A stretch of DNA of 64,000 nt from Pagrus major (taxonomy: Eukaryota; Chordata; Actinopteri; Spariformes; Sparidae). The translations under genes were made by a program, and so were the position numbers. The notes under the pieces are model-generated. The model was not told the DNA's origin, ran no database searches, and saw only the letters and a list, made by a program, of their open reading frames with translations. Shown here one piece after another: positions 2,943 through 64,000 of the stretch (its first letter is position 1; each line of letters starts with the position of its first letter). The DNA lies in NCBI RefSeq assembly GCF_040436345.1, contig NC_133237.1:27255861-27319860 (forward strand). The letters are read 5' to 3'.

Positions 2943-10150
<7,208 letters not shown>

Positions 10151-25349: not shown

Positions 25350-26330
25350 TCCTGCTCCCTCCTCCTCCCCCCGGTGCTTTAGTGTTTCTGTACGTGAGAT
25401 TTACGTTGGTCTTTTCCTGCTCATCTCTTTGGGGCTCTGGCTGTGAGCAGGCAGTGGATGGTAATAGTAGCAGGGGGTGGCTGGGTTTTCTCTTTCAGGG
25501 CTTTGTCTGTGCTCAGTCACACTCTTGTTCCCCATGGCTCTTGGATCTGTGGCCCTTCATTGGGTCGGTGTGGGGTCTAACAGGGACAAGTGTCCCACGG
25601 CCCCATATATCACCGGCTGTCTGCGCCGCTGTAGACCACACCGTCTCTCTCTGACCCTGCTGCAGATTAGCTAGGTGGCTCGCGTTCAGAGCGCCACATG
25701 AATAGCCACAGTAATCAAATGCAAATACGTAGAATTTAAGAAGGCAGCGTCCCCCCAGGGTCGCGAACAGACGGCCTCTCTGTCAGTGAGCGTGTCTGTC
25801 TGTGGTCACTGATGAGGTAATGATGGCTGAGAGATGAAGGGCGCAGATAGTGCGCTGTAATGCTACACCTCTGTATGATGGACACCCAACACTCGGCTGG
25901 AAGGCCAGGATCCTGCAGCTTCAGGCCCAGCCTCAGAGCTGTTTTCCTGGAAAGGAGAGCTGACGTTTCCCCTTCCCCCCGGCCTGAGCTCCCTGCAGGC
26001 CCCCCTGGACCGCTTTTACCTGCTGGACTGAGCTCTCCAGCTGGATTGCAGGGCTCATAATTATAATGTGGCAGGCCGGTCAGATGAGAGGCCCGCGGTA
26101 ACCTGATGCAGGTATTATTCACTGGCCCTGCTGACAGCTGCAGGTAAGAGGAGCCTCCAGGTGAAACGCTAACCCTCGCCGCTTGTTCCAACCCAGAAAC
26201 GCTGCAAACTGAAAGTGCTAAACGCCAACACCCGATGTGGCCGGGACGATGATGCAGCCATTTACAGAAGAGCTCAGCTGCTCTGGAAAGATGAGGCTGA
26301 AACCAAGAGTTTGACATTTTGTGCTCAGAG
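25350..26330. promoter_or_regulatory. Candidate conserved non-coding block 1
   Basis: This is GC-richer, repeat-free sequence with balanced words and an octamer-like ATGCAAAT (25716-25726 area). It also contains TCATAATTATAATGTGGC near 26054. A minus-strand 193-codon ORF lies here but has no recognisable domain. Its candidate regulatory status rests on composition only. Confidence 0.3.
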
Positions 26331-28560: not shown

Positions 28561-28932
28561 ACCTGACTTTATATCATCAGGAGGAGATGATGACTGAGCC
28601 TGACTTTATATCATCAGGAGGAGATGATGGCTGAGCCTGACTTTATATCATCAGGAGGAGATGATGACTGAGCCTGACTTTATATCATCAGGAGGAGATG
28701 ATGACTGAGCCTGACTTTATATCATCAGGAGGAGATGATGGCTGAGCCTGACTTTATATCATCAGGAGGAGATGATGGCTGAGCCTGACTTTATATCATC
28801 AGGAGGAGATGATGACTGAGCCTGACTTTATATCATCAGGAGGAGATGATGGCTGAGCCTGACTTTATATCATCAGGAGGAGATGATGGCTGAGCCTGAC
28901 TTTATATCAGCATGGAGGGAGGAGATGATGAC
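28561..28932. repeat. 37-bp minisatellite, 10 copies
   Basis: Unit starts are at 28561, 28598, 28635 and so on to 28894, exactly 37 bp apart. Each unit reads GCCTGACTTTATATCATCAG then GAGGAGATGATGACTGA, with an A/G variant in GATGACTGA or GATGGCTGA. It directly follows the 3' end of a dispersed element at 28.44-28.56 kb. Confidence 0.95.
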
Positions 28933-41537: not shown

Positions 41538-43827
41538 TATTTACAAAGCACCTTTTGGCAGACAAATAGAAAGCAGGACATTCAGGAAGATAATATAACA
41601 GAAACAAGCCAGGACGAAGAAGAAATTAAAACAGACATGACATGAGATCAATTTGACTTGATTTAGATTAAAAAAATGAGAAGAGTGAAAAGAATAAAAG
41701 GATTGAAAGACTAGAAAAGATGTCTTCACATAAAAGCGAGTCTATAAAAGAAGTGTGGCCCCGACAGTAACACCTGTCACCTGTAGACTGAAGCCTTTGG
41801 GACAGAGGGGGGGGGTCTAAGGCTTTGAACAGGCTCATATGTGATCAACATTTCTGCTATTATTCTTGAGGCCAGACCCAGACGAGCTTTAAAAGTGATC
41901 AGTGAAATCTTAATCAGCGAGCGGAGGGAAGGTTTATTTTGTTTTACGTCACAAAGGAGTCAGAGCGGTCGGGTCGAGTGCAGGAACGACCTTTTCCAGG
42001 TCAAACTGTGACAGCAGCGGTTTGATTGACTTCAGACTTGTTCGGTCTTCTTGGTAAACTAACAGCTTCTTCTTCTGTCCTCTCCTGTGTTGTGTTGTGG
42101 TCCAGTTCCACCATCGGGACCCGGGTATAGTGGGTCTGCTGACCAGCGACCAGGTTCCTGCAGGCAGGACGGTCTACTATGGAATGATCGCTGATGGGAT
42201 CCACACCAACCCTGCAGCCCTGCGAATCGCTCACAGAGCTCATCCATCAGGTCAGTGAAGGTGGTCTTCACAAATCATTAGTTGTATTGTTATTATTAAG
42301 TTTTATTAAAAACCTGTGATGGGTTGAAAGGCTGGGAGTCACTTTTTATTTCAGTCAATCACTTTTTGTTTCTTCTGTGAAAATGTTTCACACAGACGTG
42401 GGGTTAAAGTGCCTGATGACACGAGGTCGTCAGGCACTCTGGTCCAATATGTTTGAAATATTCACATCAGTTTTTCCTTCAGCGTGCCCTGCTCGCCCCC
42501 GAGCTCTTCACGTCTTAGACTGTGGTGTATTAATGATCCACTCTGGGCTCAAAATCAGCTGACGTGACTGTGTTGTTTGTCGCACTGTGTGTACAGTTGG
42601 TGTTCCCAGCTGACGACGAGCTCTTTTTACAGACCAGTACACCCAGTAAGACATTACAGCGAGTGTAACAGCTGGTATTCTCTTTGTTCAGGCTTGGAGT
42701 GTTTAGGGAGGCCTGAAAAATAGAACAGGACGTCTTTCACCATCTCTATCTCCCCAAACCCTCCTTCAGTTTGTCTCCACTGAATTGACATGATGACGCA
42801 CAATGTGAAACAGTCGGATACAGTTTTTCTCTTAAACACCTGCAGAGTCGCTCTGTAGATGAAGAGAAAGATTAAATCTGGTCTTGTATTTGTTTGTCCC
42901 TTCAGGTTTGGTGTTGGTGACGGATGCGATCACCGCGATGGGTCTCCCTCCAGGTCGTCACACTCTGGGTCAGCAGGTCATTGAGATCCAGGGACTCCAC
43001 GCCTACGTAGCAGGTCTCTGATCAGTGTTTACGTCTATCAATACGTCTTTTATTGGCAATCAAACAATTTTGGTTTGAAAGAAGAAACACAAATATAGCT
43101 ATAGCCATATTTTTATTAGCCCTGCATGTTCTGAACTTTACTTCATCTCACTCTCTCTCTCAGGCACTACGACGCTCTGCGGCAGCATAGCCACCATGGA
43201 TATGTGTGTACGGCACTTCAAACAGGCCTCAGGTGAGGACAATATAATTTGTTTTTTTATATAAAAACTCTTCTTTTTCTTAATATCCTTTTTCGTGTCT
43301 ATCCTTGTGTGTTGCATGTGTGTGTTGACAGGCTGCAGTGTGGAGGAAGCTCTGGAAGCAGCGTCACTCCACCCCGCTCAGCTGCTGGGTGTCAGCAACA
43401 AGAAGGGAAACCTGGACTACGGCTCAGACGCAGGTCAGGATACGCTCACTTGAAAAAGAGTTACTGTGACTGACTGGAGATTCAAACTTCTACAAATAAC
43501 ATTCAACTCACTTGACTGATCAGCTGATTCCACTGAGGAAGAAGAAGACGAAGAAGAAGAAGATGAGGAAGAGTTTAATTCTGAGTTTAATTGGCGGTTG
43601 TCAAAAAGCTGATTCTGCATCCTGGTTTTTGTACTTTTTCTGTTTTGTGACATTTCAAAAGTTCACTGCATGTTTGCTCAACAAAAAACAACGAGTGATA
43701 TCTGTCAAATACTGATTATGTTTATTGTGTGTGTGGCTGTCTTGCAGACCTCGTGTTGCTCGATGATGCCCTCAACATCAAAGCCACCTATATATCTGGA
43801 GAGGAGGTCTGGAGAAAAGGACCATAG
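39221..43827 (+). CDS. amdhd2: N-acetylglucosamine-6-phosphate deacetylase
   Basis: Eleven coding exons: 39221-39303, 39430-39566, 39954-40093, 40227-40281, 40833-41045, 41209-41297, 42106-42250, 42906-43013, 43164-43232, 43332-43433 and 43748-43827. They join in frame to 406 aa, close to human AMDHD2 (about 409). The enzyme removes acetate from N-acetylglucosamine 6-phosphate in amino-sugar catabolism and opposes the hexosamine pathway. It is an amidohydrolase-superfamily barrel. Visible metal or catalytic residues are E143 (FHLEGPF), H211 (LGHSV), H232 (THLFNAM) and D294 (VTDAI), all at the expected positions. All junctions are GT-AG. The N terminus, [21 protein letters not shown], is chosen because the ATG has purine at -3 and leads directly into the conserved FxNCRIL strand. 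Exon 2 is tightly flanked by TG and CA tracts. Confidence 0.97.
39381..39426. repeat. (TG)23 tract forming the 3' splice region of amdhd2 exon 2
   Basis: A pure TG run of 46 nt is followed immediately by CAG and the exon, so the usual C/T-rich tract is replaced by TG. Confidence 0.95.
39569..39604. repeat. (CA)n tract right after the amdhd2 exon 2 donor
   Basis: CACACA with two ACGC interruptions starts 2 nt inside the intron (GTAACACAC). It is complementary to the TG tract on the other side of the 137-nt exon. Confidence 0.93.
41490..41536. repeat. (AAT)n microsatellite in amdhd2 intron 6
   Basis: About 15 TAA/AAT units are present. The surrounding 41.3-42.1 kb intron sequence holds no recognised exon. 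Confidence 0.9.
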
Positions 43828-44404
43828 AAGAAGAAGCCTGCAGATGGAAACTGACCCGCGGTGCCTTCAGGGGACGCTGTTCACCACAGAACCACAAATC
43901 TGTTGAATGTTTTAATTCATCAGAACACACAGTGAACTTTATCTTCATCTAAACAAATTGGATGGATTCATCCTTAAATTCAGTGCAGAAACTCACCCAG
44001 AGGATGATATCTGGTGACTTTTCTTCTAGTCCTGCAAAAAAGTCAAAACTTCCATTTGTCAAGACACATCTAAAATCTCCTTAAATACAGTGAATGACTG
44101 CAACTCCCATGAGCCTCAGCTGTACCACCAAAAAGAGTCACTTTATGTTCAAAGTGCAACTTCAGCTGATGAAAGCTGACTGAAGTTTGATGTACAGCTG
44201 AGTCAGCTCATTCAGACGGATGGGTGATAAAATATTTACCCTCCATCGTCGACATAAATCCTGTCTGAGTGGAGTTCAGATGTCCTAAAAAGGCCACCGT
44301 ACGGAGGGTTAAAAACGTGTCATGTTTCTGGAGATGATTACAACCAGTGTGGCTACAGGTTTGTAGTCTTGTTTACTTCACTGACGGCGAGTACTTTGAT
44401 TATC

Positions 44405-44410
44405 AATAAA
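44405..44410 (+). terminator. Candidate amdhd2 poly(A) signal
   Basis: AATAAA lies about 580 nt after the amdhd2 stop and is followed by a T-rich stretch. Confidence 0.4.
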
Positions 44411-44949
44411 AATACCTATTTTTTTAGTTTAAAGTCGCTTTAAATCAAATAACAGCGATCGAGTTCTGAATCGGACTGCTTGCACTCTTATCTAAATTTT
44501 GTTGAAGCTGGGAAAATGACAAATTAAGGGTTTTATAAATGCTTAAGCACTTACTACAAACGACAATTTTTTCTAAGCCTGCGTTCAGATGGTTTACTGT
44601 GTGTTTTAATCACATTTATATAAGTGGACATGATGAAACATTTTGGTATTAAACGAGATAAATCAACTTTCAGAATGTTTTTATGTAACATGATTGTTCC
44701 TCTTCCAAGCAATAATATTCACTTTTGTGACATCATCTGTTGTTTGGCTTTATGTTTTCACGTATCACACAAGTGTTTTTACATGATTTTGCCTGTTTAT
44801 TACACTTTATTCACCGTACAAGTCATAAATATGGGAAATTCAGTCCTTTTTGGAGAGAAAAAGCCAGAAAGACAATGATTTTAAGAAAGGCGTCACGAGG
44901 CAAAGGGCTGCTTAAAAGCATCGCTGTTATTTTTTATGATGACGGCCAT

Positions 44950-45800
44950 TTTACATTTCTGACGTTTAATAGACAAACGCATCTGATTGGCTGAGCTCCT
45001 CGCCGCTCTACGTCACATCAGCCTGAAGACGACGATGGCTCGCGCTCCTTCAGACCGTTATCACAATTTCAGAAAATGGCGGCAAAAGAAACAAAGAAAC
45101 ACGACCGTGAATATCCAACAGGACGAATGTAGGTTTAACTGAAGAGGAGGAGCATTATAAGTAAAGTTAGTGTTCGCAACTTATAGAAATGAGCAGCTTT
45201 GGTGAATCACGAATTAACACCAAATATCCATAGATTCATCTGATGAACTTAGCTAGGTCAGTGTTTAGCCTGTAAGCTAACTGCTAGATGTTAACTTTAA
45301 TTCAGCTGTTTTGCTAGGCAAGTTCTGACACACACAGCTAGCCATTTAAACAGCGTTAAACATCTGTGAAACCATTAACCGAGGCAAAACCAATAAATGT
45401 AGTCACATGTTCTGGTGATGAAGTGCTACTTGGTGTATTAAAGCAGCAATGATTTATAAGAAAACTTAAATTGATGTTTTACAAGGTGTACACGTGCCCG
45501 TGAGCCAGGCAAATTACTGCTGGATTTATAATGGAGTTTGGTGCGGGGAGATGGAGCCGGACAGACATGAGTCATTATCCAGCGTCCATCCTCCTGAGCC
45601 CCGATGAGGGAGGAAGATGTGCATCTTGACCGGATAAGAGGTCGATTCGCCCCGGCTGCTGCCCGGTGTCCTGTCCTGTCCTGTCCTGTCCTGTCCTGAA
45701 AATGTCCCCGGAGATGAGAGAGCCTCCGCGGCGGCGGGCTGAAGGAGAACAGCGGCAAGTTAGCAACATTAGCATTAGCCCCGGTGAGACGTTAGAGGGA
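44950..45800 (+). promoter_or_regulatory. Candidate capn15 promoter and first non-coding exon(s)
   Basis: CpG density rises here. AAAATGGCGGC at 45075-45085 is a YY1-type motif often found just after vertebrate start sites. A GC-rich block at 45.55-45.78 kb ends in CCCCG then GTGAGA (donor near 45782). Six copies of a GTCCT unit lie at 45667-45698. This is inferred to be the start region of capn15; no transcript evidence is available. Confidence 0.4.
45667..45698. repeat. (GTCCT)6 in the candidate capn15 promoter
   Basis: Six tandem GTCCT pentamers are found in the GC-rich block just before the candidate donor at 45782. Confidence 0.92.
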
Positions 45801-46861
45801 AGTGCCCTTCAAAATAAAAGAGGAACTGATGTGTGAGCATGCAGAGAAGAAGACTGTTCGGTACCAATAGTCTGATACCAGCTTCTATGAGATCAATATT
45901 TAAGTGGAATTAAATTGATAATGAGCACATGAGACACATTAATGCCTTCTGAAAAACCTCATTGATGATTTTGCACTGATTGGTTGTTTAATGGGAGTCG
46001 TAACCAGTGCTTGAACAAGAAATTGATTAGCCAATTAACAGAACATTAAATCAACAACCGCTTTGCAAATTGATTGTCTCAGTCATATTTTAAACTATAA
46101 TAAATAAAATTATAGTAATATGCCATTAAATGCACCAATAATAATAATAAAAACAAATGAAGAGGTGATAATTTTATAAAATGTGACATAAGTTGATATT
46201 CCTGTTTTAAGTCATTTGCATAATGAATCAGAAATGTATAAAGAACATAAATATGTAAATAAATACATTTTTAAAACAAATTAATTAATGAAAAAATAGA
46301 AAATAAAATGTGACAGTGTATAAATAGTTAATTTTAATAAAGAAGTAAAGCAGAATTATCAATTTATGTCATTTTTGAAAATTAAGGCCTTTGTTTATTG
46401 TCAATGTTATTTTTGGTGCATTTAATGGCATATTCATTTATTTATTGAACCATTTATTTAGTTTTTGTTTTGGCAGCTTTGCTCCTCCATACATTTCCAC
46501 TAGTTGAACTTCATTTTTACAATGTCACCACGACCATTTACCTTCATTTTCATTTAATCAATTAAATCAAATACAATTATTCTGTCACATACATTGTAAA
46601 AAAAAAAAAATTCAACACTTCTCTAACGCTAACACGGTATCTGGTTATATAAGGTCAGACTGTCTTCTTAGGGCGGATAAATACAAAGCTATAATGTAAA
46701 ATTAAAATTGTGATTAATATATTAAGTTTTATTTATATGCCATCCATTTTTGGCAATCACCAGAGTAGACCTTTTATTTCATTGTACGTGAGGAAGTTAG
46801 CATTACTCAAGGAAAGTTTTATTGTGAACAGTTTGACAGGAAGTGTGATTTATTGCCTGCA

Positions 46862-46991
46862 GCTTGACAGTGGTGATGAGAGCGTGGTGACGGTGCATCT
46901 GAGGCTGAAATGAAAGAGGATGCATGGAGACCTCAGACAGCCGGCAGGAACATTCATCCCCTCCTCGCCCAGCGTGTCCGGTCTGCAGTCG
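46862..46991 (+). other. Possible capn15 5' UTR exon
   Basis: The stretch is bounded by TTGCCTGCAG (acceptor) and GTCG/GTGAGTCC (donor). It contains an ATG at 46910 whose frame, if joined to 48725, runs to a TGA at 48778, overlapping the main start. It would therefore act as an upstream ORF, not as coding sequence. Splice-site quality is the only evidence. Confidence 0.3.
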
Positions 46992-48724
46992 GTGAGTCCG
47001 CTTCCTCACAGAGCCGCTGCTGCTTCTCATCCTCACGCTGCTCTGCAGTCTCCCAGTCAGCCACCAGCTGTACTGCAGGTGCACCGGGTTACCTGAAGTC
47101 TATGTGAACTTCAGTATCAGCAGGGATGCATCTGCATTGAGGTACAGAGGAATTCACCTGCATGCAAACCACACAGGGAGAATTTACTCAGTTTTTACTC
47201 TTGAAATTTGGATTTTTTATGCATTGATTGTTATTTTTGTCATTCAGAGACAAAACAGGCAAAGAAAAGGACAAATTCTCTGTGACGTGATTCTGGTTTT
47301 ATAAGATACAAGTTGTGGGTTTTCAGTAGAGAGCAGACAGTTTGTCTCTTCGGATCTGTGTGTCGTGTCGGAGACATGTGAAGCCGGAGCTGCTGAGGTT
47401 ACCACACAGATTTTAAGTCCTTGTTCAAGGACAAAACTGTGTTGTGAGCAGAGAGGGAGCTGAAGCAAGCAGATACCACAATACAATCCATGACATGTGT
47501 GTGTCCCCTCTGAGTCAAACCAGCAATGTCACTGTGTAATGCAGCTTTGAATGCTGCTCCTCTGCAGGGCACTGAGGTGGATTTGTCCCTGTCACTGCTG
47601 ATTACGTGATAATATCATGCAATTTTAAACTAATCAATATCAAACAAGTCATCAGTTTGATGTCTGTGTACGGTTAAAATATCAAAATGAAGATTTAGGA
47701 TGTAGATTTTCAGTATTGTATGAAATAAGTATTATTATGGTGTGAATGTGACGTTATGATAGATAATAAATCATTTAGCAGTATCACTGAATGGTGGAAG
47801 TTATAGTTTGGTTATTTTGTTGTGGCTTTATTTAAAACTATGAACCAGACGTTACAGAGGACTGATTGGTTTTAGGCTGAAAGTTAATTCTTGACCTTGG
47901 AAACAGCAGCTGGAAGAACGATCTCACCTCAGGGTCCATTTTATAGCTTTCCACTCCATCAGACGGTATTTCTCAGCAGATAATGTTTTTGTAGATTGTT
48001 GAGACTTCTGGTCCACTTTGGCTTAAAAGTTGAGATTGAAAGTTCTCTTGGTTCTCTCAACTAAATGTTGAACATCAAAATGCAGTTTTAGTGATCACAC
48101 ACTGATCTGAAACGACGTTTACACCCTTTATTAAGCTGCTGAGCTAAATGTGTTAGCGTTCACCCCGTCTGAAGTGGGTGCACGAGCTTGACCGCACATC
48201 GAGGGTGTACATCACGTCTTTTCAGATCAGTTTGTGATCTCGGGGCTTCTGAAGACTTGGATTACAGCAGACGAGCTGTATGGAGACATCTGATGTTTAA
48301 ATCATCTCCAGCTGCTTCAGTTGTTTAGCAGAATGCTGCAACTCTATTTATTCTAATGAAACTTGTTCAAACCCTATTTTGTGGTTATTTGCCAAAAATT
48401 CTAGCAGCTGTCAAATAAAACAGACCGTCATGTTTCACAGAATATCAAGCTGATGTTCTGGTTACAGAGGAGACGGATGCTCCGCTTGTTGTCTACAGGA
48501 AGTTGTTTGTGTGATATGCTTTATGTGCACACTTCTTATATAAATATTACTCATACAAATTGCTTGTTTTATCTGACCAACAGTCTAAAACCCAAAAATA
48601 TTCAGTTTCATATTATGTGACAACAAAAGCAAAACTTCTTCATAGTTTGAGACGCTGGAGAAAAATATTTTGTTGGAAAAATGATTGAAACAATGAGTCA
48701 CTCTCCTTCTGCCTCCTCCCTCAG

Positions 48725-48909
48725 GTCCCCTCCACCTGAGCCAGCAGCACCATGGGAGGGTCCACCTCCTCCCTTGTTGAGGAGGCCGAGGGCGATGCAC
48801 CCCGGGGTGCAGCTCTGCCCCCCTCCCCCATCATGGGATGTCTGAGGAGCAGCCAAAGCACCTCCATCCCTCGGCAGCTTCCCAGACCTAGCAGGCACAG
48901 AGAGCGCAG
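48725..48909 (+). CDS. capn15: capn15 N-terminal exon (coding from 48752)
   Basis: The acceptor is CTCCCTCAG (ends 48724) and the donor CGCAG/GTAAGAG. The ATG at 48752 has a near-ideal context (CACCATGG), and an in-frame TGA lies 15 nt upstream (48737), so this is a true N terminus. The 52 full codons begin [20 protein letters not shown] second in-frame ATG at 48833 (residue 28) begins [20 protein letters not shown]. Split codon 53 (AG plus C) joins in frame to [13 protein letters not shown], seven residues before the first zinc-finger Trp. No stop interrupts the junction. The human protein, as remembered, starts close to the first zinc finger and lacks this segment. The segment is Ser/Arg/Pro-rich and predicted to be disordered. 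Confidence 0.8.
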
Positions 48910-51900
48910 GTAAGAGACGAGACAGGCTGCAGACATCACAGCAGTGTTTGGGACAGTCGGCAACAACGAAGACGAATACCAGCAGAGCCAGAGGATCTGC
49001 AGAGCACGGACCGAATCAGATATTTCAGGGTTTCTCAGAGGAAATCTGTTAGCGGGGGTGGTTGATACTTTTCTTCCAGACACTGCTGTGTGCTGCTCCG
49101 ATTAATTAATGCAAAGTGATCAATCAATTACTCACCTGCTGAGCTTCATCTGATCTCATTATCAGTGAAGTTACTAGACAGAGGTTTAAACGATCTCCTC
49201 ACTCATTAAGCATCTGATCTGTTCTGTGTAATGCAGTTTCCCTGAAGCCTGATAAGGAAAACATTTGATTACATAACAGTGTAAATATATGACGCGTCAC
49301 ACTTCTGCATTAAAATGTCTAAAAACCTTTAATGTTATCAACAATGTTTAAAACCAGAGAAATCCGTATTTTTACTCAATGTAATGGTGCGTTTGATTTG
49401 GTCGCCTGTTGCTGCAGTGAAACACCAGATGATACGTCAGAGTGAGGAGGGAAGTCTCCAAACGATACTCAACGTAAAGCGAAGAAAACTTTAATACGTT
49501 ACCTCGTCTGTGCACATTTGTTTAACAATGAAGACAACAACTCCCATGATCCCACGCTACTTACGTCTGTCGTTTTGTTTTGATTGAGAGACCTCTAGTG
49601 GCCAAAATGACGTACTGTGCGTTTAAAAATCTCCTCTGATGTCGGTAAAGGTGATTCTTGTTTCAGGCTACAAAAGGATTTGAACATCTTAAACCGGATG
49701 TCTGCAGCTCCTTAAACGTCTTAAAATGTCTGACATTCAATTCTATAAATGTTCAGCCCTGAAAGTCATTAAATAGTTTTGAATTAATTAATTGTATATT
49801 TTATTTTTTCATTTATCTGTCTTTTGACTTCTTTCTGTAAACTTGAGTGAAGCTCTTCTGCCTGAGATTTCTGAATATTTAAACCTGCCACTGAGCCTAA
49901 ACTGTCCTTACTTGGACTGACTTGTTGGCAAAATGCAGATTAACCTGAGTCACTCTAATAATCATATTCCTACATGACCCTAACATTCACAGGAGCACAT
50001 ACGTTAAACTTAACTGCAATGCTCGAATAAGATGATTTTTAATGATGATTTTTCCAGAAATCAGTCTTACATTTGGTTTAAATTATCTTGACAGGTTTTC
50101 AAAAGCATTAAATGTAAGTCTGGACACATTTGACCTCTGCACTGTTTGTGCTTAATCTACCAACACTACAGTTGTTAGCTGTAAGCTAGCTTGCAGCAGA
50201 TGCCCTCACCATGTGTGTGCTAGATGGTTTATTGGAGTTATTTCTACAACATCATAATTATTGTTGCTTCAGGACGATTATTGATTATTAAAGTAGAGGA
50301 CTTTGACCCAGGAGACTGAGGTTTGTTTGTTTTTTTTGTTTTTAACCCTTTCACAATGTTAACCACGTCTTAGAAAGCTTAACTTCTGCCATGTGTGAAT
50401 TACTTTTTCCCAAATCACAAAAACCTGAGTGTTCAGTTGCAGTGATGCTCCTGAAGCAGCATCAGTTATGATGAACAGCACCAACACGCTGATATACCAC
50501 TGAGCAAAAGACTTCCAGTGGAGAGCCGGAGTGAAAGTTTACAGACGTCCGAAGTTGAAAAGATGTATAAAATGAGACTGTTAAAACTTCCCTGTCCCTG
50601 TCAGGATGTCACTTGGACATCAGTAGTGAATGTTGAAAGACAGCTTTAGCTCTGGCTGTCCTCTGGACGTCTTTCGGATGTGTTTTTGTCAGATGTGTCA
50701 GATCAGGTGTGGTGATTTGTCAGTGTGTATATGTTGAGTTCGACCTGCAACTGATCTCAGAAACTCTCCCCTCGTCTCTATACGTTTCTGATTCATAAAG
50801 CCGAGGGACACGTGGGAACGTTTTCAACATCAGGATTTCACATGATCAGGGCTCAGCTTCCTGCACTTGAGCTTCGTTCGATGTTTAAATTCAGAGCGTT
50901 TGCCTTCAGGCTCAGTTCTGTCTTCACTGCCAACTCTGTACTAATTGGTCTGTTTATCTCACACTGCATCAGCTGATAAAAAACAACCCAGAGATACTTC
51001 AGTTCCTTCACTGGGGATAGCAACCTGCTCCCAGCCACCAATCAGTCACTTTTCTGGAGGTTTTCTCGTCCAAACTGCTGCACACTGCACAGCACACACT
51101 GAAGGCCACAGTCCAGTTCAGCCTCTGTAGCTACGTTATTGCCAAAGTCAGAGGTCACCAAGCCATGAACTCCCCGACTCAGTCTGTCCATGGAAACAGA
51201 CACTGGAACTATGGAGAGAAATACGCCTCAGTGTTAGTGACAAATGTAGCTACTGTGCAGAGAAATGACGTCAACCCATCGTACTGATGTGAGTTTTATT
51301 TGAGCTTTCTCTCTTGTAAAAATTAAAGGAAAATAAAAGACATGAAAGGTTCAGAACATCACAGCATCTCTGAGTGTCCATTTTGAGAACAGTCCCAGAC
51401 AGGGGCTGTCTTTCCTCAGCAGCCATGTTGGTTCTGACCCATAATGCCACTGACCCATGACATAATCCCATAAACCTTAACCTTACCAAACCTCCCATAA
51501 AGAGGACTACATTTCTCTACCACATCATGTTAAGGTGATCCATTTTAGACATTTTAAAAAAATCATTATAACCCTTTTCAGATGTTGAAGGTGCTCAGTC
51601 ATCCAGGTCATGGTAGTTCTGTATCGCAGGCAACTGGACTTGTTTCAGTTTCTTGATCAAGTTCAGTTGCCTGTGATACGGCGCTTAGAAAAACCCTTTT
51701 AACACCTCGTGTTACATTTTTAATCACTTTTTAATGGTTGTATGAACTCAATCACAAATTTATGACACCAAACGTCTCAATGAAACATCTCTGAGGTGAT
51801 TCCAGCGTGTTTCTTGGAGCCATCTTGTTTGGTCTTGTTTGTTTGTTATTTCTACATGTAAAAATGTGATAATTATAATTTATTAATGTCATTACGCCAC

Positions 51901-54900
51901 ACATTGCACCTTAAATGTGACTGGTGTTGATGCTTCATTTATATTCTGTGCTTCTGTGGACGTCCTAGGCTCCAGTATGTGCTCATGAATTTTTTATGAA
52001 TCAGTCGATATGAAGTAAACCCCAGCCTTCCCGAGTTTTGTTCAAATCTCCACTTATTAATAATTACTGTATCTGTGTCTAATGCACTGAGTAGATTCAG
52101 TCTGCTGCCACATTGTCGCAGCCTCCATCAGAGTCGGTCCCTGCAGGAGTCAAGTTACTCTCTGACAGGAAACGTAACGCTACCAGGGAAATCCCTGGTG
52201 ATTGGACTGTCGACAGGAGTCTGGAAATGCACGTGCAAAGGGAGTTTGGGTCGGCGGATCTCCTAACATCTCGTTCGATACATAAAGATCAAAATGGACC
52301 AGAAGCGACATGAAAGCAGGAGGTTTTAAAGTATCATTTCAAAAGATGTAAAATCAACCATTTTAGTGATTAAGTGATGAGTAACTTCTTCAACTCCTGT
52401 GCAGGAAATTCTCTCAATAACAGGACTAACTGTGTTTGTGGGGTTGTTTTCCGGTTGTTGAGTTTGGGTCTTAGGCCTTCCTTCCTCTCTCTCTGTGTCT
52501 CTCTGTCTCTCTCTGTAGAGACAGGCCACCAAATGAAACGCACCCTTACCTTGCGTAAACTTGTGGATCTGGTGTGAACATTGTTGGAAACATTTGGGAT
52601 AATTTAAGAACACAACTCAACAACACGTAGAACAAAGGTCGAGTCGTTTTTAGACACTTTAATGCAGATTACATATCGTATCTCCATTAGAAGCATTACC
52701 TTTAAAACAATTGTCAAAAATATGGAAAAGAAACTTGGTGGACACGATTAGTTAAAAACCAGCTTCAGTAAACCAGTTACTGTTTTCAAAATAAAATTAA
52801 TCGCTAATTGTTTTAGTAAGTAATAAAGGAAGTTTGTGTGTTTGTATTTCTGCATCAATAATTGAGTTCTTGCCGAGCGCTGCGTCACAGAAACACCTGC
52901 ATCTCACAGACGGTTTGCACTGCAGTAACCCGTCCAGGTTGGCGCTCTGCTGGAAGTTTCAGGAGTGATGCCAAAGCCACTTAGAGCGCAGCTTCAAAAA
53001 TGTGGGCCAGCTTCCACACAGATGTCCCACCGGCTCCTCCTGTCTAAATTTCCCCCTGGATACCACCACACAGATAATCTGGGTCTGTTTTACAGTCGAG
53101 GCCTCTGAGCACAGAGAGGAACACGAGTCTTAGATGTATGACAGCGTTTCTGAAGCAAATTCAGTGGATTACAAAGAAGCCGAACACTGCACGCAGTGTA
53201 AACTGATCCGACTGGTGGAGAAACAGCTCCAATAATACACAGGGAAGGTGGAAATCATAAATATTGTATAAAACGACCAGTTGAGGAACAGTTTATTTTG
53301 TTGCTGTAGTGCAGCTTTTTACATCATTTCCATATTCATGCATTTTAATTTCCTCCCCGCAGCCACACAGGGTATAGAAACACAAGAACTGCTAATGCAC
53401 CCGTTTATATTTGGATTTTTCCTTCATCCTCCAGCTTCTTCTTCCCTTTCTCCCCTCAGGACTTTACAGTTTCATAAAACCACAGTTCAGCTGAAGACAG
53501 TGGGGATGTTTTTCACATTACACTTTTAATTAGCAGCATAGCAGATATGTGTGGTGGTTATTATCAGAGAATTTTAACACATTCACGCCAACGTCACAGA
53601 AAATACCCAAAACTGAAACTAATCATCGCTGAAAGATATTTTTGACACATTCAAGTTTTTGTATTCTCTGAAAAACTATTTCAGAGAACGGCAAAACTCT
53701 TCCAAGACCCATCATTATCATAAAAATCATTATTTACTGGAATAAATTGAAATGAAATACTTCATATGAATCAGTTATCAGGGACTCATGTCTTCATCGT
53801 TCTTAAATCCAAGTTATAGCAGCACAGACACCGGGCAATAAAATAAAAATAAGTAATTAAATAAAAAAGGCTACATGCAGTGTGTGTGTCACAATACCTT
53901 AGGCCTACGACAGCCATGATGTGTCAACTAACTGTAGTCTGTCTGTATGACCCGACCCAAAGTGAATGTAAACCGTCCCAAAACCAAAATGTTGCTTCTT
54001 TGCTCAGTCATTATCATCTGTAGTCGTTGTAGTAGCTGTGTTGTGCACCCGTAGAGCGTGCACAGTAGAGACGTCCACTGACTGAGCCGGCTAACTTGAA
54101 TGGGGATAAAATAATGTATGTATATGTGTATGTATGCATGTAGCTGCAGTTTATGAATTTTACAGGCTATACAGGAATAATACACCACCACAAAATACAT
54201 CAGAGAAAATCATATATCATACCACATAAGTGTCTTCTGAGGCTCCTGAGTGTCCTGCAGGTCTCATGTTTCACTGTTTACTCCTGTTATTATATTTTCT
54301 GTCTGTTCTTCTACTTATTTATCTGCTTTCTGCTTTATTCGCTCTCACCACGTCTCATTATTCTATTCATCTTATTTTATTGTACAGCGCCCTGGTTGTT
54401 TTTTAACGCTCTTTATACTGAAATAAACTTGATTTGATGATCATAATAGAGCGTATGATGTTATGTATAATACAGTAAAATATAAAATCTGAACTGTGAT
54501 TCTGAACTTTGGTGTTTTCTCTCCAGCTTCTCTTCTGGTTCGATGCCCATGCAGAGGAGTCAGTGGGCTTGTGGCTGTTGCACTTTCCTCAACGCAGCCG
54601 GCGCCCCCCGCTGCTCCATCTGTGAAGCTCCTCGACGAGGAACCGACCCCCGCTGGATGTGGCCCGGAACCAGCAGGGAGGAGGGTCGCTGGTCCTGCCC
54701 GCGGTGCACGCTGTCCAACTCCCCTGACAAACTGTCCTGCTCTCTGTGTAGCTACACCGGAGCACTGGACCGAACCCAGGGCTCGTCTGAGGACCAGCCT
54801 CGGCCCCAGCGCTCCAGCAGCTGCTCCGGTCCCCTGAGGCCGCCGTCGACTGAGCTGTTCAAGCAGCAAAATAAAAAACAGCCTGAAGACGCAGATAAAA

Positions 54901-57900
54901 ACAGCCTGATTTGGGAATGTTCGCGCTGCACTCTGCAGAACACTCCTACCTCCATGTCCTGCTCAGCTTGTGGCGGACCACGCAAACTGTCTCTCCCCCA
55001 AATCCCTGCAGACGCCCTGCTCCTGCCTGATGTCTGCAATCAGACCGGAGCAAAAGCAGAACCTGCAGCTGGGGCGCTGTCTCTTTCCATAACAACACGA
55101 GGGGAATGTTTACCGGTGGAGGCTTCGTACCCACACACGAGCTCCTCGGTGCTCAGCGCGGCGTCCGCAGCTCATAATAATCCTGTCCCCTGCAGCCGCA
55201 GAGAGGTGCCCCCTCCAGATGTTTGCCTCAGTCAGGCACATAACTTAAGTCCTTCTCCGTCGACGCTCGCTGTTTCACACCTCTCTGCCCAGCCTGAGCT
55301 GCTGCCCAACAGACGGCTCAGCATCCTTAAAGAAGAAACATCACCGCTGTCACCTTCAGCAGCTGTACTGTTTCCAGTCCCCGTCAACAGGACGGAGGAG
55401 TGGTCATGTCCGGCATGCACCCTCATCAACAAGGTCAAAGCCAAACACTGCCTGGCCTGCCACACTCCTCAGCAGCATGTCACGCAGCTGAAACCAGCGG
55501 CATCCCCGAAGAGGAAGGAGAGCAAGCTGGTGGAGGCGCTGCGACAGAGCGACGAAGGAGAGGCCAAAGAGCTGTGGGAGAACATCGTCAGCTTCTGCAG
55601 AGAGGTTTGTGTTCGACTCCGTTAGAGAAGCACATTCAAATCAAAGTCATCTTTGACGGGCAGTTCATCAGAAAATAAAAATAGATTTTGAGATTTCTTG
55701 TCCACTTGGCTAAAACGTTGAGATTGAAAGCCAATCTGGACAAAAGCAACGCAAAGATACAGATTATTATTTATGTTAAAATAAATACCGTCTGTCATTA
55801 TATATGTGAACATCATCTCCTCCCTCCATGCTGATATAAAGTCAGGCGAAGTTTCATAGTCCACAAAACATTTCTGGAGTTCACAGCTGCAGCATTCTGC
55901 TAAACAACTGAAGTATCTGGAGACTTAAAACAGAAACACAACCACCATACAGCTCGTCTGCTGTCATCCACGTCTCCAGAAGCCCCGAGACCACAAACTG
56001 ATCTGAAAAGACGATATTCACACCCTGAAATCTTCCCTGTAGCTGCTAAGATAAAAGTGTTAGCACACCCCCCGTCTGAAGTGGGAAAAGGAAGAAGAAA
56101 AGGACAGGACTCAAGACTAGAAATCAGATCAATCATTTTCTGTCATTTTATCATTTGAATCTGAATATTTAGCAGAGCTGAAGCCTGGAAACTCCTACAT
56201 GGCCTTTTCCTTATATTTTGTCATGAAGTCTGTTACGTTACGTTTGCTACAACATGCTTGAGGTTTTGTTGTTTCTGTTTTTGATTTACTCTTTTAGAAA
56301 GCTAAAGGACTCATCCTTTAGCCAATCTGACCTTGTTCTGTCCAGTGAATTCACTGTTACGCCTTCAGGCCGGTGTTATGTTGTCTCCCTCAGGAGAACG
56401 AAACATTACTCTTAAGTCCTTCATTTCTGCCACTATTGGCCTTCTGAATACCGACAGAAATCATTTTAGATGACTGTTACATTCTTTTACACTTGGTTAT
56501 TTTATAAACTACAATAAAATATTGTATTTGATCCACTGCTGCTCGTATGCTCAAAATATGTGGATCTGTTGCCTCTGACATAAACCGAGTCAGGTTAAGC
56601 TGCAGATGAATAATAAACTAAGTTCTCTAAGTCTGAATCTGAATCTTTCCCAGAACGCGGTGACGTTTGTGGACGACAGCTTCCCTCCTGGTTCAAAGTC
56701 TGTGGGCTTCCCTCTGGACGACAGCGTCCAACATCGGGTCAAAAAGTGGCTCCGTCCTCAAGAAATCAACTGCTGCAACCTGAGAGAGCGGGCGGTGAAG
56801 TGGTCTGTTTTCCGCACGCCTCGCCCATCTGACATCCTGCAGGGACTTCTGGGTAACTGCTGGTGAGCCAGCTCAGCCACACACAGTTACTGCTGAATCC
56901 AAACATACCAGCCCCAGGTCTGTAACAGGCTTGGGCCGACATAAGATATTACTGAACAATCACAACACGTGCCATCATATGCCATGTGTTTCACATTATT
57001 GAATATCGAACAGCTGTTATGGCATCTTTGGGCTTTTATTTTGAAAAGAACGCTGAGCTGTCATGGCATTGATATTTGACAGGGTGGGGAACCAGTGACA
57101 GACCGGCTGCACTTGATATTGTAGGCTATTCTGTTTATGTTTGCACATCATTCTTTGCACTAAAGTTCAAATTAAAAGTTCTTATTTATTTTAATTTAAG
57201 TCCCCAGAGCGCATATTTGATATTTCACTGTAACACCTGGGAGTGTCTGTCATTTAAAATGATTCCAGATGTATTAAAACACAGAAAATAAAATCCTGAG
57301 CTGTAAACAGGAGATTCATCAATGACCAGAACCTGAAATAAACATCAGAACATTGAGATCTCTGATTTCTTTACGCGTTTCCACTTAAAGTTCATCAAAA
57401 AATGTCTCTGCTGACTGTTTATAATGTAACAGATGCCGTCACGATATTTGGGCAGGACAATATTGTGATACAAAATTTTGGATATGGGATACCTGCTCTG
57501 TATGTCTCTATTTTATAGCCTGTTTTATAGTAAATATATTGTTAATAAAGAAATGTTTGTCACAAGATGACATTAAGATATTGAAGGCTGATAAAAATTC
57601 AACTCAACGATTGTTGTTGAAAAAACTGTGGCCTGCAAACAGCATATTATTCTTCTTACTTTAATAATCTACTTCAAAACATTGAAGAAATATTTGAAAA
57701 CACACTATAAATCTGTATTTCCAGTATCAGACACTGACCCCTGCAGGGCTGGTAGCAGCTGTAAGCTTCAGATGGATCCGGTGCAGTTTCACGGTGTTTC
57801 TGCCTGTCTGCATGTTTTGGAGAGCAGGTTCCTGAGTGCCTTGGCTGTCCTGGCTGAACGTCCCGAGCTGGTGGAGAAGGTGATGGTGACTCGCTCGCTG

Positions 57901-60900
57901 TGTGCAGAAGGAGCCTATCAGGTGCGTCTGTGCAAAGACGGCTCGTGGACCACGGTGCTGGTGGACGACATGCTGCCGTGCGACGAGAACGGACACCTCC
58001 TCTTCTCTCAGGTCGAACACTCAGCTCTGAACACGCAAATGTACTGTATGTTTGTGTATATGTGCATGTTCATGTATACTGGGTATTTTAGCTTCTGGTT
58101 TCCTCAACACACACACACACACACACAAACTGGGACTTCTTGCTTTAAAACAGCTACTGCGAGTACATGTAGGAACTAAGTAAACAGACTTAATTACCAT
58201 TGCGATCAATATGTTTGTACAAATGCAGCATTGAGAGTGGAGCGACTGACACAATGATCCAGAGATACTCTGCCTGTAACACCATTAACTCTGTTCTTCA
58301 GCACAGATGAATCATGATGATGCTTTCTGCTCCAAACTCCTGTGTATTTATCAAACAGACAAACCAGGCTGGAGTCAGTCTTCACTGCTTTCTGCTTTTT
58401 TATTTAAGGGAGGATTGTGCAAATAATTGGAGGAGACGTGGGTTCCCAAAGGTCCTTGAATCCTTGAAAGTGTCTGAATTCTTTGTTTTAATGACTGAAT
58501 AAACAAACTGACCTTAATGGACAACACAGTTTCGTACTGTTTTACTTTGTTTGTTTATTCGTGGCGGACCCTGCCACCTTTTTAGATTCAGTGTTCTGGG
58601 ACCTTATTTTCCTCTGAGAACAGCTTGTTTAGTTTGTAATGATACAAAGTTTGTATCATTACCTAATTAATATTGTAAAGATTAAAATTTATTTATAGAG
58701 TTTAAATTTCTTCTGAACTACACAGTTCAAAGCTTTAACTGTAATGTGTCGGCTCCAGAATTGAATTTGAAGTTCGTCTTGTCCCGAGCTGTTAAATTAA
58801 ATAAAATAAACGTGGAGTTATGTTGCTCTTCAACTCATAAATACGTCTCTGTCTCGATCCCTCAACTTATACAATATATTGTTTTGCTGTGCTGTCACAG
58901 GAGTCAGAGGACCACACAGTCTGTCGTGACTCCCACAGCAGCTCAGCTGAGACATGTCCACACGTTACAGCCTCTCTCTTTTTATTAGTTGTCTGAGAGC
59001 TTCTGTAAAACCTGCTAGTTCTCATTATAAAAAACTCTCAGCATCGTAACAGTAATTAACCTTGATCCATGAGGAAATTAGGCCTGTAAGGTCTTTGAAA
59101 AGACTTTGAATTTGATGTTTTAGAAGCTGAGCGTACCTTGATGTTGAGCGATTTGGATTTATATTGTGCTGGATTTACTGAAGCTTTCTGCAACGGTCGG
59201 GTCTCTGCGACAAGGAAGACTGGCGTGAAAACATTTTGGTTTTTTTACCTTTATGCTGCAGAAATGTAAAGGACCTGAGATACAGAGCACTCCGTAAAAC
59301 TAGAAAATAAGTAAACTGTTGAAAATATAGACCTAAAGTTACAGATGTGCGTTTAAAGAAGTTAAAATCTGACTGTATTCTTGCCACAGGCTGGAGCTGG
59401 TGTCGGATGAAATACCTGAAAAATAAGTTCTGTTTCCGTTAATCTCTTAATAGCCTGATGTTCCTCTGCTCATCAGGTTTTTAAGCTGTGGTCCAGGAGT
59501 TAATTACTCAACTATAAATTCTTCTAATCCTTTTCTCACATCTTCCCTCTGCAGGCCCAGCGGAAGCAGCTCTGGGTGGCTCTGATTGAAAAAGCTCTGG
59601 CCAAGCTCCACGGTTCATACTTTGCCTTGCAGGCGGGCCGAGCTATCGAGGGCCTGTCCACGCTGACCGGCGCCCCCTGCGAGTCGCTGGCCCTCCAGGT
59701 CAGCTCCACAAACCCCAAGGAAGAGCCCATCGACACGGACCTGATCTGGGCCAGAATGCTGAGCTCCAAAGAAGCGGGGTGAGCGTCAGGAGAGTTTCTA
59801 AATTTAATCTGTTCAACAATGAATCTTTAAACTCATTCTGTGCTCGTAGGTTCCTGATGGGGGCTTCCTGCGGAGGAGGTAACATGAAGGTGGACGACTC
59901 GGAGTACGAGTCTCTGGGTTTACGTCCGCGACACGCTTACTCTGTCCTGGATGTGAGAGACGTCGACGGTCACAGGTGAGGAGTAAACTCTGGTTTGATG
60001 AAGTTTTCTTGGGAAACGTACCGGTAGATTAAGTGATACTACCATCCACAGTAAGACCTGGAAGCAACGTGTTCAGTCGTATTTTTGAAATGAAATCACA
60101 GCAGGTTGGGATTTAGGGATTATGCTCCAGGAGGCTCTTCTCTCCATTAAGGAAGAAAACACAAACTATTCAGAGCTGCCCAATCTGACTTTTTCTCTCC
60201 TGATGACCAAACTTGAGTATCTGCCGATCCAGAATCTCCCAGAAAGAAAGGATCGATTCTTTCCCTCAGCTCAAACCAGATCACCCTCAACTATAAGTGG
60301 AAATATTCACCATTTTCCTTTTAGAGCTTGTACATACTGTGTTTTTAGATTTAATTGTTACAATACAGTATCCAACATCTGCTTCCTGCTTCAGATTACT
60401 GCAGCTGAGGAACCCGTGGGGGCGTTTCTCCTGGACTGGACCCTGGGCCGACGACTGGCCGAGCTGGCCTCCACACCTGAAGAGGGAGCTGTGCGCCCAG
60501 AGAGCCGAGGACGGCCTGTTCTGGATGGACTTCTGGGATTTCATCAGGTAGATCAGGAGTTAACAAAGCTGCATTTTTTTCCTCTTATAATCTGATTGAT
60601 TTAAAGTATAAATGCATCAATGAAATAAGGAAATTCATGAAAATCTTTTTATGTACTCAACAAAGATTTAAGCATCAGTCCACGTTGCAGAAGTGTGTTT
60701 CTCTGTTCACACATGTCTGTGAGTGTGTGTCTGACCCTGGCAGGTACTTTGACTCAGTGGATATCTGTAAGATTCATTCAGACTGGCAGGAGGTTCGAGT
60801 GCCGGGTGTTTTCCCTCGAGGGGCCGACGTCCCGGTGACGGTGGTGTCCATCACGGTTCTGGAGAGAACGGCCATGGAGCTGGCGTTGTTTCAGCAGGGC

Positions 60901-63746
60901 AGCAGGTACGACGACGCCCGACAAACACGGAGCAATCAACAAGATGTTTTAGTGTTAAGGGACGTTTATAGATGAGCTGCTGAGTTACATCAGAACTCTG
61001 TCCAACACACGTGAGATACAACAACTGTGATTCGTCAGTTTGGGCTTCATGTTTTGTTTAGAAATTTAGATTTTAACAAATTTTTGCCTCAAGAACGTTG
61101 AAAGATTTTAACATTTGCGATTTTGGACAGATTATATGCACCGTGTGCCACAGGAACTATCTAGCTGGGAACGAGTGCATTTTCTAGCATTGAAAACTAA
61201 ACAAAAATGTTTGAACGCGAGGTTACTTGTCTGGTTTTTCTCCGTCTTCTGTGGGGTCCCCCAAGGCTTGATACATGGCCTGATCCTTTTCTCCTTTTTT
61301 ATGCTCCTGTTGGGTCACATTATCTGAAAACACAACCTCTCATCAGCAAACCAATAAATCCCTTTTTGTTGTCACATTTATCTCATGAAGTAACATCCAA
61401 ACTAAACAGAGTGCAGGTCAGAAAGCCAGAGTGCAAATATGAGGTCAAAATGACTTCAGACTGATTAATGTATAAACTCAACGTATCTCCTCTCCTGTGT
61501 CGTCAGGCGATGGGACACAGCAGAGAGCCACCTGTTGGACCTGTGTGTGTTGGTGTTTCGGGTCTCCTTCGACAGCTCAGGTGTTCTGGCGCTCGGTCGC
61601 CTGCTGGCTCACAGCCGCCGCTCGGTGAGGAGGTTCGTCGGCTGCGACGTCATGCTGGAGCCCGGCGAGTACGCCGTGCTCTGCTGCGCCTTTAACCACT
61701 GGCACACCGCCGCCACGGAGGGGGCAGGTAGGAGCCGCAAAATCAGGCTGTTTGTCAGGATTAATGCTGATTTTTAAACATGTTTATTTCTTATTTAAAA
61801 CAGACTTCAACACTACGCATTCAGTAATATTCCTCGGCCTATTCTTTAGAGCCCACTTGTGTATACGGTTGAATAAGGTGAAGAAAGACTCATCTGACCG
61901 CTTCACTTTCTCCACATCTCTGTAGACCACATAAATCTAATTGTGTTTGTCACTTCAGTCTCTGTTGAGCAGCTCCTGAAACGAACCTCTTTTAAGGATC
62001 TTTGCCATCTTGATATAAAAACAGAACCAGCTGACCTGCTCAGCGGTTTGATAAAGAGCATGGTTTCATCTTGCCTGACTGATGAAACAAGAATAAAAGT
62101 GCAAACATTCAAACAAAGATGCTTTTGGAAAGCAGCAGCTCCAAATACTAATATTAAGCAGAGCGCTCTCCATCCCGTCCGTTCACTCTTGTTTTACCTC
62201 GGTTTCTGTCACTCTTCTCCATCAGCGGGGCTCTTTTTCTTTTGCAGTGTAGTTTCCACAGTTATTCCAGTTGTTCCCCCGATACCTGGAGATAGTGACG
62301 CCTCTTCAAGCTTTGTTTGAGGCGTGATTCATCCCTCGTTTCTCCTGGAATAATCCAGCTTGGTGTCAGACTGAACATCACAGTGAGAGCCAGGTTTATA
62401 GGGAACCAGCCGTTACGTGGATGGTGTCATTTCTGTGCAGACGTTACACTGTGACATCAGTATTTGGATTTGATTTTTCACCACTGTGTCCTCTCAGCGA
62501 GCTGCAGCAGGTCGGAGGTTCCTGGTTACATGCTGGCCGTCTACAGCTCCCGGCTGGTGATGGTGGAGCAGGTAACGGCCTCCAACACCACCATCGCCGA
62601 CGCCATCATCCAGCTGACAGAAACTAAAGGAGAGAGACACGAGGTAACGCTGCGTTTCATTTAGTATTTACATGTTTGAGTTTGCAACAGTTATTCACAG
62701 CTTTCTCTGCTGTTTGATGGCAAAATCCTGCTCCTGTGTTGACGAAGAGCTCCTAAACGCATCACAAGAGCCATTTTGAATTGGTTTACTCTTTGTTTAT
62801 GTATTAATCATAAATAATGGATGTGTGTCATCAGGATGTTTCTCTGCTCAGAATCAGATAAAAAAATGTTTAATTAATATCTTTTATTACCTTTCATTAG
62901 TTCTTGATGTCATTTCATCTTCTGCCTTTTTATTTTCGTTTTATTCTAGTTTACTTATTTTTCTAAATGTTTCTTATTTGTATTGTTCTTCTGTTTGGCA
63001 CTGATGTTAGTATTTACTCCTGTTACACTTTTTCTGTATTACTTTTATTGTGTTTTTGTTTTTTATTCTTATGTTACTGGGATTTCTCGGCGGTCTCTGG
63101 CACAAGAAGGATTGTTGTAGAGAACAAGACGATTAAAGTCTAACAGAGTTTGCATAAAGACGCCTTTTACTTTTGAAACTAAGCTAAGTACTTTTACTTG
63201 TAGTGGAGTATTTTCACAGTGTGGTATTAGTCCTTGTACTGCAGTAAAGTATCTGAATCCTTCCTCGTCTTTCTTTCAGGGTCGGGAGGGGATGACGTGT
63301 TACTACCTGACCCACGGCTGGGCGGGGCTCATCGTCATGGTGGAGAACAGACACCCCAAACATCACCTCCACGTGTCGTGTGACTGCAGCGACAGCTTCA
63401 ACGTGGTGTCGACGCGCAGCAGCCTCAAAGCCATCGACAGCATCCCTCCTCTGCACAGGTTCACCGCAACACACACCGCTGCTCATCGATCAGGCTGAGA
63501 CAAAGTTACTGATGACAAACGATTCATTAAGAATTCATTAACAGTTCACCGCTTTATTTGTCTCTCAGACAGGTGCTTGTGGTTTTGTCTCAGCTGGAGG
63601 GAAACGCTGGATTCTCCATCACTCACAGGCTCGCTCATCGCAAAGCCGTCCAGGCTTCTCTGGGAAACTGGAGTCCCTCGAAGGCGACACACAGCCCTGC
63701 TCTGAGCCCCGAGACAGCAGGTCTGCATCAGCCTCGACCTCTCTGA
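48752..63746 (+). CDS. capn15: Calpain-15 (small optic lobes type cysteine protease)
   Basis: Twelve coding exons: 48752-48909, 54527-55604, 56654-56862, 57828-58011, 59555-59778, 59850-59975, 60395-60547, 60744-60905, 61507-61727, 62498-62643, 63280-63458 and 63569-63746. All are GT-AG and in frame, giving 1005 aa. From the internal Met59 the protein would be 947 aa. Four RanBP2-type zinc fingers are visible (C68/71/82/85, C110/113/124/127, C184/187/198/201, C347/350/361/364). Human CAPN15 is annotated with five, as I recall. The calpain protease core carries the triad C481 (GNCWFLSALAV), H646 (RHAYSV) and N666 (RNPWG). The C-terminal SOL-homology domain ends GLHQPRPL. It is a non-classical, probably cytosolic or membrane-associated, calpain-family protease; human loss of function causes eye and developmental defects. 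The first exon is discussed separately. Confidence 0.96.
48910..54526 (+). other. capn15 intron after the N-terminal exon
   Basis: This is a 5.6-kb intron. It holds repeat fragments at about 49.29-49.42 and 52.39-52.63 kb (related to 35.10-35.21 and 3.42-3.62 kb) and a LINE/SINE-type A/T-rich tail at 54.30-54.44 kb. A GTTGCCTGTGATACGG segment at about 51667 is the near-reverse complement of one at about 51620. No exon was recognised. Confidence 0.6.
54290..54445 (+). mobile_element. LINE/SINE-like 3' tail before the capn15 zinc-finger exon
   Basis: CTGTCTGTTCTTCTACTTAT, then ATTGTACAGCGCCCTGGTTG and ACTGAAATAAACTTGATTTG resemble the common fish retroposon tail with an AATAAA-type end. It ends 80 nt before the acceptor. 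Confidence 0.4.
54527..55604 (+). CDS. capn15: capn15 zinc-finger exon
   Basis: This 1078-nt exon carries all four RanBP2-type fingers (W-x-C-x2-C-x10-C-x2-C) and a Ser/Pro-rich linker. It ends [11 protein letters not shown], which leads into the protease core. An ATG at 54543 could serve as start for a shorter isoform if the 48725-48909 exon is skipped. Confidence 0.95.
58103..58128. repeat. (CA)n in a capn15 intron
   Basis: A short CA run in the intron after the exon ending at 58011. Confidence 0.85.
58490..58600 (+). repeat. Dispersed element sharing a TGGCGGACCCTGCCACC core, copy 2
   Basis: ATAAACAAACTGACCTTAAT, TACTGTTTTACTTTGTTTGT and GTGGCGGACCCTGCCACCTT match copy 1, in a capn15 intron. 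Confidence 0.75.
61115..61450 (+). mobile_element. LINE reverse transcriptase fragment in a capn15 intron
   Basis: The plus-strand frame around 61230-61326 reads [20 protein letters not shown] and then LLGHII. This matches the non-LTR retrotransposon RT core (GVPQGS-x-LGP-x-LF-x-x-Y, then PLG-x-II, as found in L2/Maui-like fish LINEs). The fragment is short and out of context and has no endonuclease part, so it is a dead relic. Confidence 0.75.
62900..63125 (+). mobile_element. LINE-derived 3' tail (capn15 intron)
   Basis: T-rich sequence ends in GGGATTTCTCGGCGGTCTCT then GGCACAAGAAGGATTG. It resembles the tail at 10560-10765 but is more decayed. Confidence 0.35.
63165..63262. repeat. Fragment of the same element next to a capn15 exon
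   Basis: CTAAGTACTTTTACTTGTAG and TGGAGTATTTTCACAGTGTG followed by GTACTGCAGTAAAGTATCTG are typical of this family. It ends less than 20 nt before the exon 63280 acceptor tract. Confidence 0.55.
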
Positions 63747-64000
63747 CCGCTGCCGGACAACAGATCCGTTCATACACTGCACATGAGGTCACAACATGGA
63801 GGCAGCTTCCGACACTGTAGGAATTACACGTGTTCGTCTCATTTGACTGTTGCTTCGATGGAAAAACTTCCTGTAAATGTTGGACTGTTTTGCAAAGAGA
63901 CGATCATATTTAGTGAGCAGGCTGAGCGCTGTTAGAGAGTCGGAGCTCCTCTGAGACACAAATAATCTCACTGCCTCAGTTGAATCTGTGTGGGCTTTTT

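Follow-up and report, generated by a model that had tools for sequence, protein, structure and literature searches.

An upstream Met-Gly exon in a fish calpain-15 gene and its candidate N-myristoylation signal

The calpain-15 gene analyzed here possesses an upstream coding exon that gives the protein a Met-Gly N terminus, and the start, frame and junction phase of this exon are retained in a second calpain-15 gene of the same genome. The exon lies in a stretch of 64,000 nucleotides (hereafter the window, corresponding to C23:27255861-27319860 in the searched genome of 786 Mb and 25 contigs) and is, to judge from the sequence, the second exon of a presumably transcribed gene and its first coding exon, translated from the ATG at 48752. 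The sequence-only reading of this DNA had proposed such a Met-Gly start, and the exon anatomy, the chance controls and the homologue on contig C20 presented below all support it. It is plausible that this start carries an N-myristate. The account as a whole, i.e., a first coding exon whose start 1 is used, N-myristoylation of Gly2, and coincidence detection of membrane and ubiquitin, is regarded as moderately probable.

The upstream exon and its gene

From the domains that it encodes, the gene is identified as calpain-15, a SOL calpain. Nine open reading frames (ORFs) were scanned against Pfam: the finger exon encodes four RanBP/NZF-type fingers, and Peptidase C2 (PF00648) was matched in four ORFs downstream of it, while the contexts of the Cys-His-Asn triad, including RNPWG, are all readable in the calpain ORFs. 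The four other ORFs (two further downstream and two upstream) returned no Pfam match; the two downstream ones match the C20 gene at 65% and 85% and may represent the SOL-homology region. The SOL calpains human CAPN15 and Drosophila small optic lobes likewise have RanBP/NZF-type fingers before the calpain protease domain; compared with these, the fish gene has an additional coding exon upstream, which supplies the Met-Gly start. An Rfam search of window positions 44000-56000 returned no match. The features of the gene are collected in Table 1.

Table 1. Positions of calpain-15 (capn15) features within the window
Feature	Positions	Strand	Basis
Candidate first exon of capn15, untranslated (its start is set arbitrarily; the donor following 45783 is CCCCG/GTGAGACG)	45540..45783	+	Inference only
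Internal coding exon of capn15 (probable): 27 nt of 5'UTR, then the coding part from codon 1 to the second base of codon 53	48725..48909	+	Splice scores of 13.4 and 11.0 bits; random-copy control; homologous exon at C20:13254628-13254847
Conserved N-terminal block beginning at start 1 (codons 1-16); candidate N-myristoylation signal	48752..48799	+	Residues 2-16 identical to the C20 start at 8/15, ungapped
Second conserved block, residues 23-36; holds ATG 28 at 48833, absent in C20	48818..48859	+	Alignment with C20
Zinc-finger exon of capn15 (residue 53 onward)	54527..55604	+	Pfam PF00641, E 1e-23, 4 stretches
Remaining capn15 exons in the window: calpain protease domain and putative SOL part at the C terminus	56655..63786 (approximate span)	+	Peptidase_C2 in 4 ORFs; exon-by-exon C20 matches

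The anatomy of the exon was confirmed as first described, with the ATG at 48752 situated in agcaccATGGGA and an in-frame TGA at 48737, 15 nt before it. From this ATG to 48909 there are 158 nt, followed by the donor CGCAG/GTAAGA, and the frame continues into the finger exon (acceptor TCTCCAG/CTTC, 54527 being the first exon base) through the split Ser codon, AG/C. Stops interrupt both other frames of the exon. The splice sites proved as good as had been claimed: with general splice matrices applied to the whole 64 kb, the acceptor ranks fifth of 4244 and the donor ninth of 3982 in the window. The donor at 55604, which ends the finger exon, is weak (4.0 bits). The strong acceptor at 48725 (CTCTCCTTCTGCCTCCTCCCTCAG/G), absent from the earlier reading, makes 48725-48909 most likely an internal exon of 185 nt, with an untranslated first exon expected upstream. 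The low CpG observed/expected ratio of the exon (0.25, i.e., not a CpG island, at a G+C content of 66% compared with 43% for the window) fits an internal exon. The candidate first exon in Table 1 is a guess: the region 45500-45799 is richer in both G+C (0.57) and CpG (observed/expected ratio of 0.70), and the donor at 45783 is one of three scoring above 7 within 43400-48720.

With 24.3 bits, the 48725/48909 pair is second on the + strand, after the pair at 43164-43232 (25.4 bits), and above all pairs on the - strand (best 23.5). As a chance control, the + strand was randomized 60 times at matched composition, and pairs with a summed score of at least 24 were counted; 0.05 such pairs were obtained per copy, and none had an ATG frame of 50 codons that stayed open as far as the donor. 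Two such pairs occur on the real + strand, and the one with a 50-codon open ATG frame is 48725-48909. A chance origin of the exon was considered and rejected on the basis of the splice ranks, the random-copy control and the genome match of the C20 exon.

A second calpain-15 gene on contig C20

When the 167 residues that begin at Met59 were searched against the whole genome, a single further gene was identified, at C20:13268996-13269532 (E 1.5e-31, with 45% identity), and four ATG-Gly starts with a donor were found in the 27 kb upstream of this finger match. The C20 Met-Gly exon has its ATG at 13254669, ends in phase 2 at AG/GTAAGAG and joins in frame to a finger exon 14 kb downstream, which begins at 13268959 (SHSHSPGSMAAAVRGSEWSC). 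The phase 2 junction is common to the window and C20 exons, their donor regions are alike at 19 of 20 bases, and the encoded N termini read MGGSTSSL in the window and MGSSASSL in C20. Two acceptor candidates of the C20 exon score alike: 13254628, which lies 41 nt ahead of the ATG, reaches 10.7 bits, and 13254409, which lies 260 nt ahead of it, reaches 10.8 bits. The nearest in-frame stop lies 153 nt upstream of the ATG, so that with the nearer acceptor no stop would stand between the C20 start and any exon further upstream; two of the three frames of the C20 exon are open.

The reciprocal genome search with the C20 exon returned six matches at E values up to 10, namely the exon itself, the window exon and four partial others (E 1.3-4.6). 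The best non-self match was the window exon, aligned end to end over residues 1-59 with 52% identity and no stop, at an E value of 0.66. This value is not significant alone; what is significant is the location of the top non-self match, which in 786 Mb coincides exactly with the window exon. The presence in C20 of an exon homologue with frame, phase and start retained constitutes the decisive evidence that the exon is real.

The two joined segments align over 82 residues with 42 identities, and among the 39 identical residues other than Met and Trp the codon differs at 26 and is the same at 13. The identity at residues 2-16 (Table 1) was reached in 4 of 200,000 shuffles. Gly2, Ser4, Ser6, Ser7 and Leu8 are common to both starts, each with a synonymous codon change, and six of the eight residues shared within positions 2-15 are encoded by different codons. 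Across codons 2-15 the two genes agree at 9/14 first, 11/14 second and 4/14 third positions (Fisher p 0.01), and in the 27 nt before the ATG at 7/27 positions. That residues are shared while their codons differ indicates that selection acts on the protein. Retention of the open frame and of Gly2 in other teleosts had been set beforehand as a test that could refute the exon; for start 1, both were found retained in one relative, the C20 paralogue.

Twelve matched stretches of the window and C20 genes are identical at 644 of 974 residues, while 187 of 323 fourfold sites differ, which argues that the split of the two genes is old and that the exon has long been kept. For synteny, 1256 window ORFs of at least 30 residues were compared with 240 kb of C20 (of which 5,000 bases are N). 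The coherent matches were the calpain-15 exons, and thus synteny cannot date the pair to the teleost genome duplication; many other matches were repeat-like, and several were single and short. Just upstream of calpain-15, ORFs at window positions 39929-41158 resemble N-acetylglucosamine-6-phosphate deacetylase (AMDHD2 type); they include the upstream pair that lacked a Pfam match, and the two AMDHD2-like ORFs had no match in the 240 kb of C20 at E 1e-4. The stretches at about 5609-8341, 24645-28594 and 58378-58667 each have several matching places in the same 240 kb and are apparently dispersed repeats.

Alternative starts and N-myristoylation of Gly2

The N-myristoylation rule asks for a Met-Gly start, a small residue at position 6 and no Pro at position 7. 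MGGSTSSL had been said to fit this rule, which it does by a PROSITE-type pattern, as does MGSSASSL of C20; the pattern is permissive, since of 258 arbitrary Met-Gly peptides taken from this DNA 28% fit it as well. A motif profile of 32 NMT substrates was read against these substrates and, as background, the 258 arbitrary peptides. Start 1 of the window scored 1.22 (top 6.6% of arbitrary peptides, 12th percentile of the substrates) and the C20 start 3.33 (top 2.7%, 47th percentile). Three NMT loci are present in the genome, on C17, C20 and C23. Residues 1-27 include one Arg/Lys and four acidic residues in the window copy, versus one and three in the C20 copy, and cysteine in neither. A single myristate of this kind should bind a protein to the membrane only weakly, and the acidic, cysteine-free region after start 1 suggests that any tether is probably weak and reversible.

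The moderate motif score, the permissiveness of the pattern and the lack of a cysteine or basic cluster after start 1 count against lipidation. They would suit a protein that uses start 1 without a lipid on Gly2, and whose conserved segment recruits partners as a short site of binding or phosphorylation, as would the Ser-rich N terminus and the second conserved block downstream, which contains Ser and Arg (SPxxGxLRxSxS). This explanation is possible though clearly less likely than myristoylation, since the five residues shared at positions 2-8 include Gly2 and Ser6, both of which are asked for by the rule.

Two or three nested starts, with start 28 (MGCLRSSQ) yielding a Src-like form that carries two acyl groups and is confined to this lineage, are improbable. 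The ATG at 48833, in cccatcATGGGA, is confirmed to encode residue 28 and to have A at -3 and G at +4, and residues 28-52 comprise six Arg/Lys, one acidic residue and Cys30. The claim of a second myristoylation-type start nevertheless did not survive comparison with C20, which reads VGWLRNSH, i.e., Met28 and Cys30 are replaced by Val and Trp. Furthermore, start 1 sits in a strong context in each gene (+4 is G and -3 is A or G), which leaves little leaky scanning, and start 28 scores below start 1 in the profile (0.51 vs 1.22), in the top 8.5% of arbitrary peptides and at the 12th percentile of the substrates. Start 28 as a conserved second anchor, with Met-Gly-Cys kept in relatives, was accordingly rejected, C20 having Val-Gly-Trp. 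From Pro23 to Ser36, 8 of 14 columns are identical between the two copies (PxSPxxGxLRxSxS), and this stretch looks like a conserved internal motif with a chance Met in the window copy, which fits the alignment better than a start does.

Residue 59 corresponds to the ATG at 54543 in ggttcgATGCCC, a weak context that argues against its being the main start of a form that contains the exon; in its C20 counterpart, as read from the sequence, position -3 is T and position +4 is G. The three N-terminal forms proposed earlier, from starts 1, 28 and 59, are consequently upheld for start 1, which is conserved, and weakened for the others, start 28 being absent from C20 and start 59 having a weak context. 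The mammalian CAPN15 start adjoins the first finger, which counts in favour of Met59. That the exon is a pseudo-exon or untranslated, with calpain-15 beginning at Met59 as in mammals, is nonetheless highly improbable: exon 4 is given as the first coding exon of human CAPN15 in PMC12805371, yet the splice-site ranks and random-copy controls favour a real exon, the paralogue keeps frame, motif and phase with synonymous changes, and the Met59 context is weak.

Possible role at membranes and relation to known proteins

We infer that the start-1 form is transcribed, myristoylated and active at membranes, as follows. Translation from the ATG at 48752 would place a 52-residue, probably disordered segment ahead of the zinc fingers, and removal of Met would expose Gly2, which would probably be N-myristoylated by NMT. 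One myristate followed by an acidic, cysteine-free stretch would provide weak, reversible membrane binding, by which the fatty acid would retain the protease close to the membrane. Some 65 residues downstream, the NZF fingers could then catch ubiquitin on a membrane protein. By such coincidence detection, only myristate and ubiquitin together would hold the calpain long enough for it to cut a cytoplasmic tail, a cut that may be likened to that made by human CAPN15 in the juxtamembrane segment of E-cadherin. According to PMC12805371, the fingers of human CAPN15, chiefly the first, bind ubiquitin, and the protease cuts ubiquitinated surface E-cadherin near the plasma membrane, in the juxtamembrane segment. 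The same paper reports that a construct written FLAG-CAPN15 rescues knockout cells; if the tag is N-terminal, a lipid would be unnecessary in human CAPN15.

A conserved lipid signal would be a direct answer to how a soluble protease finds membrane substrates, and constructs that begin at the first finger or are tagged at the N terminus would be without it. The N terminus of the fly SOL protein, which we take to be MGTISSV, fits the myristoylation rule, so that lipid anchoring could be ancestral to the SOL family. It is a tentative and rather doubtful suggestion that vertebrate SOL calpains have long had the Met-Gly exon, which would make the protease myristoylated and membrane-sampling, and that this was overlooked since the annotated mammalian start adjoins the first finger; mammalian exons called untranslated may hide, or may have lost, a Met-Gly start.

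Partial precedents exist among other proteins. Src-family SH4 segments combine a Met-Gly start and Ser at position 6 with a flexible linker after them, and differ in that no basic cluster lies behind fish start 1. The kinetoplastid calpain-like proteins of the trypanosomatid CAP5.5 type have acylated N termini, are cytoskeletal and, to our knowledge, lack zinc fingers. Acylated calpains are already known in protists, as is also described in PMC2746569 for the Plasmodium falciparum calpain, which has a long N-terminal extension and is myristoylated at Gly2; this protein is not a SOL calpain, is nucleolar and is also palmitoylated at Cys3 and Cys22, whereas fish start 1 has no nearby cysteine. 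Zebrafish globin X (PMC3176823) also has an N-terminal extension, and its localisation to the membrane depends on the sites for myristoylation and palmitoylation in that extension; its fold is unrelated to that of calpain-15 and palmitoylation is needed too. The literature searched, including small optic lobes and N-terminal motifs as text and 30 of the 83 papers that contain CAPN15, contained no report of a myristoylated calpain-15 or other SOL calpain, the one paper that combines CAPN15 with myristoyl being a review on polyglutamine disease; the available portions of PMC5650170, PMC12805371 and PMC12002525 do not use the word myristoyl, nor do the main texts, as far as available, of zebrafish-related myristoylation studies name a calpain.

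Two further internal-exon candidates were observed near the gene. The pair at 43164-43232, the top candidate of the + strand, lies between the deacetylase ORFs and calpain-15, and the pair at 50605-50706 (20.3 bits, with a 25-codon ATG frame), within the 48909-54527 intron, is possibly an alternative exon.

The copies also differ in finger number. The window copy has 4 matches (54527-55604) and the C20 copy 6 (L006 6960-8627; Pfam PF00641), a middle-finger stretch being missing in the former and present in the latter. Human CAPN15, described with five fingers, resembles the C20 copy after the first C20 finger. On this sequence difference, the window and C20 copies may differ in ubiquitin binding.
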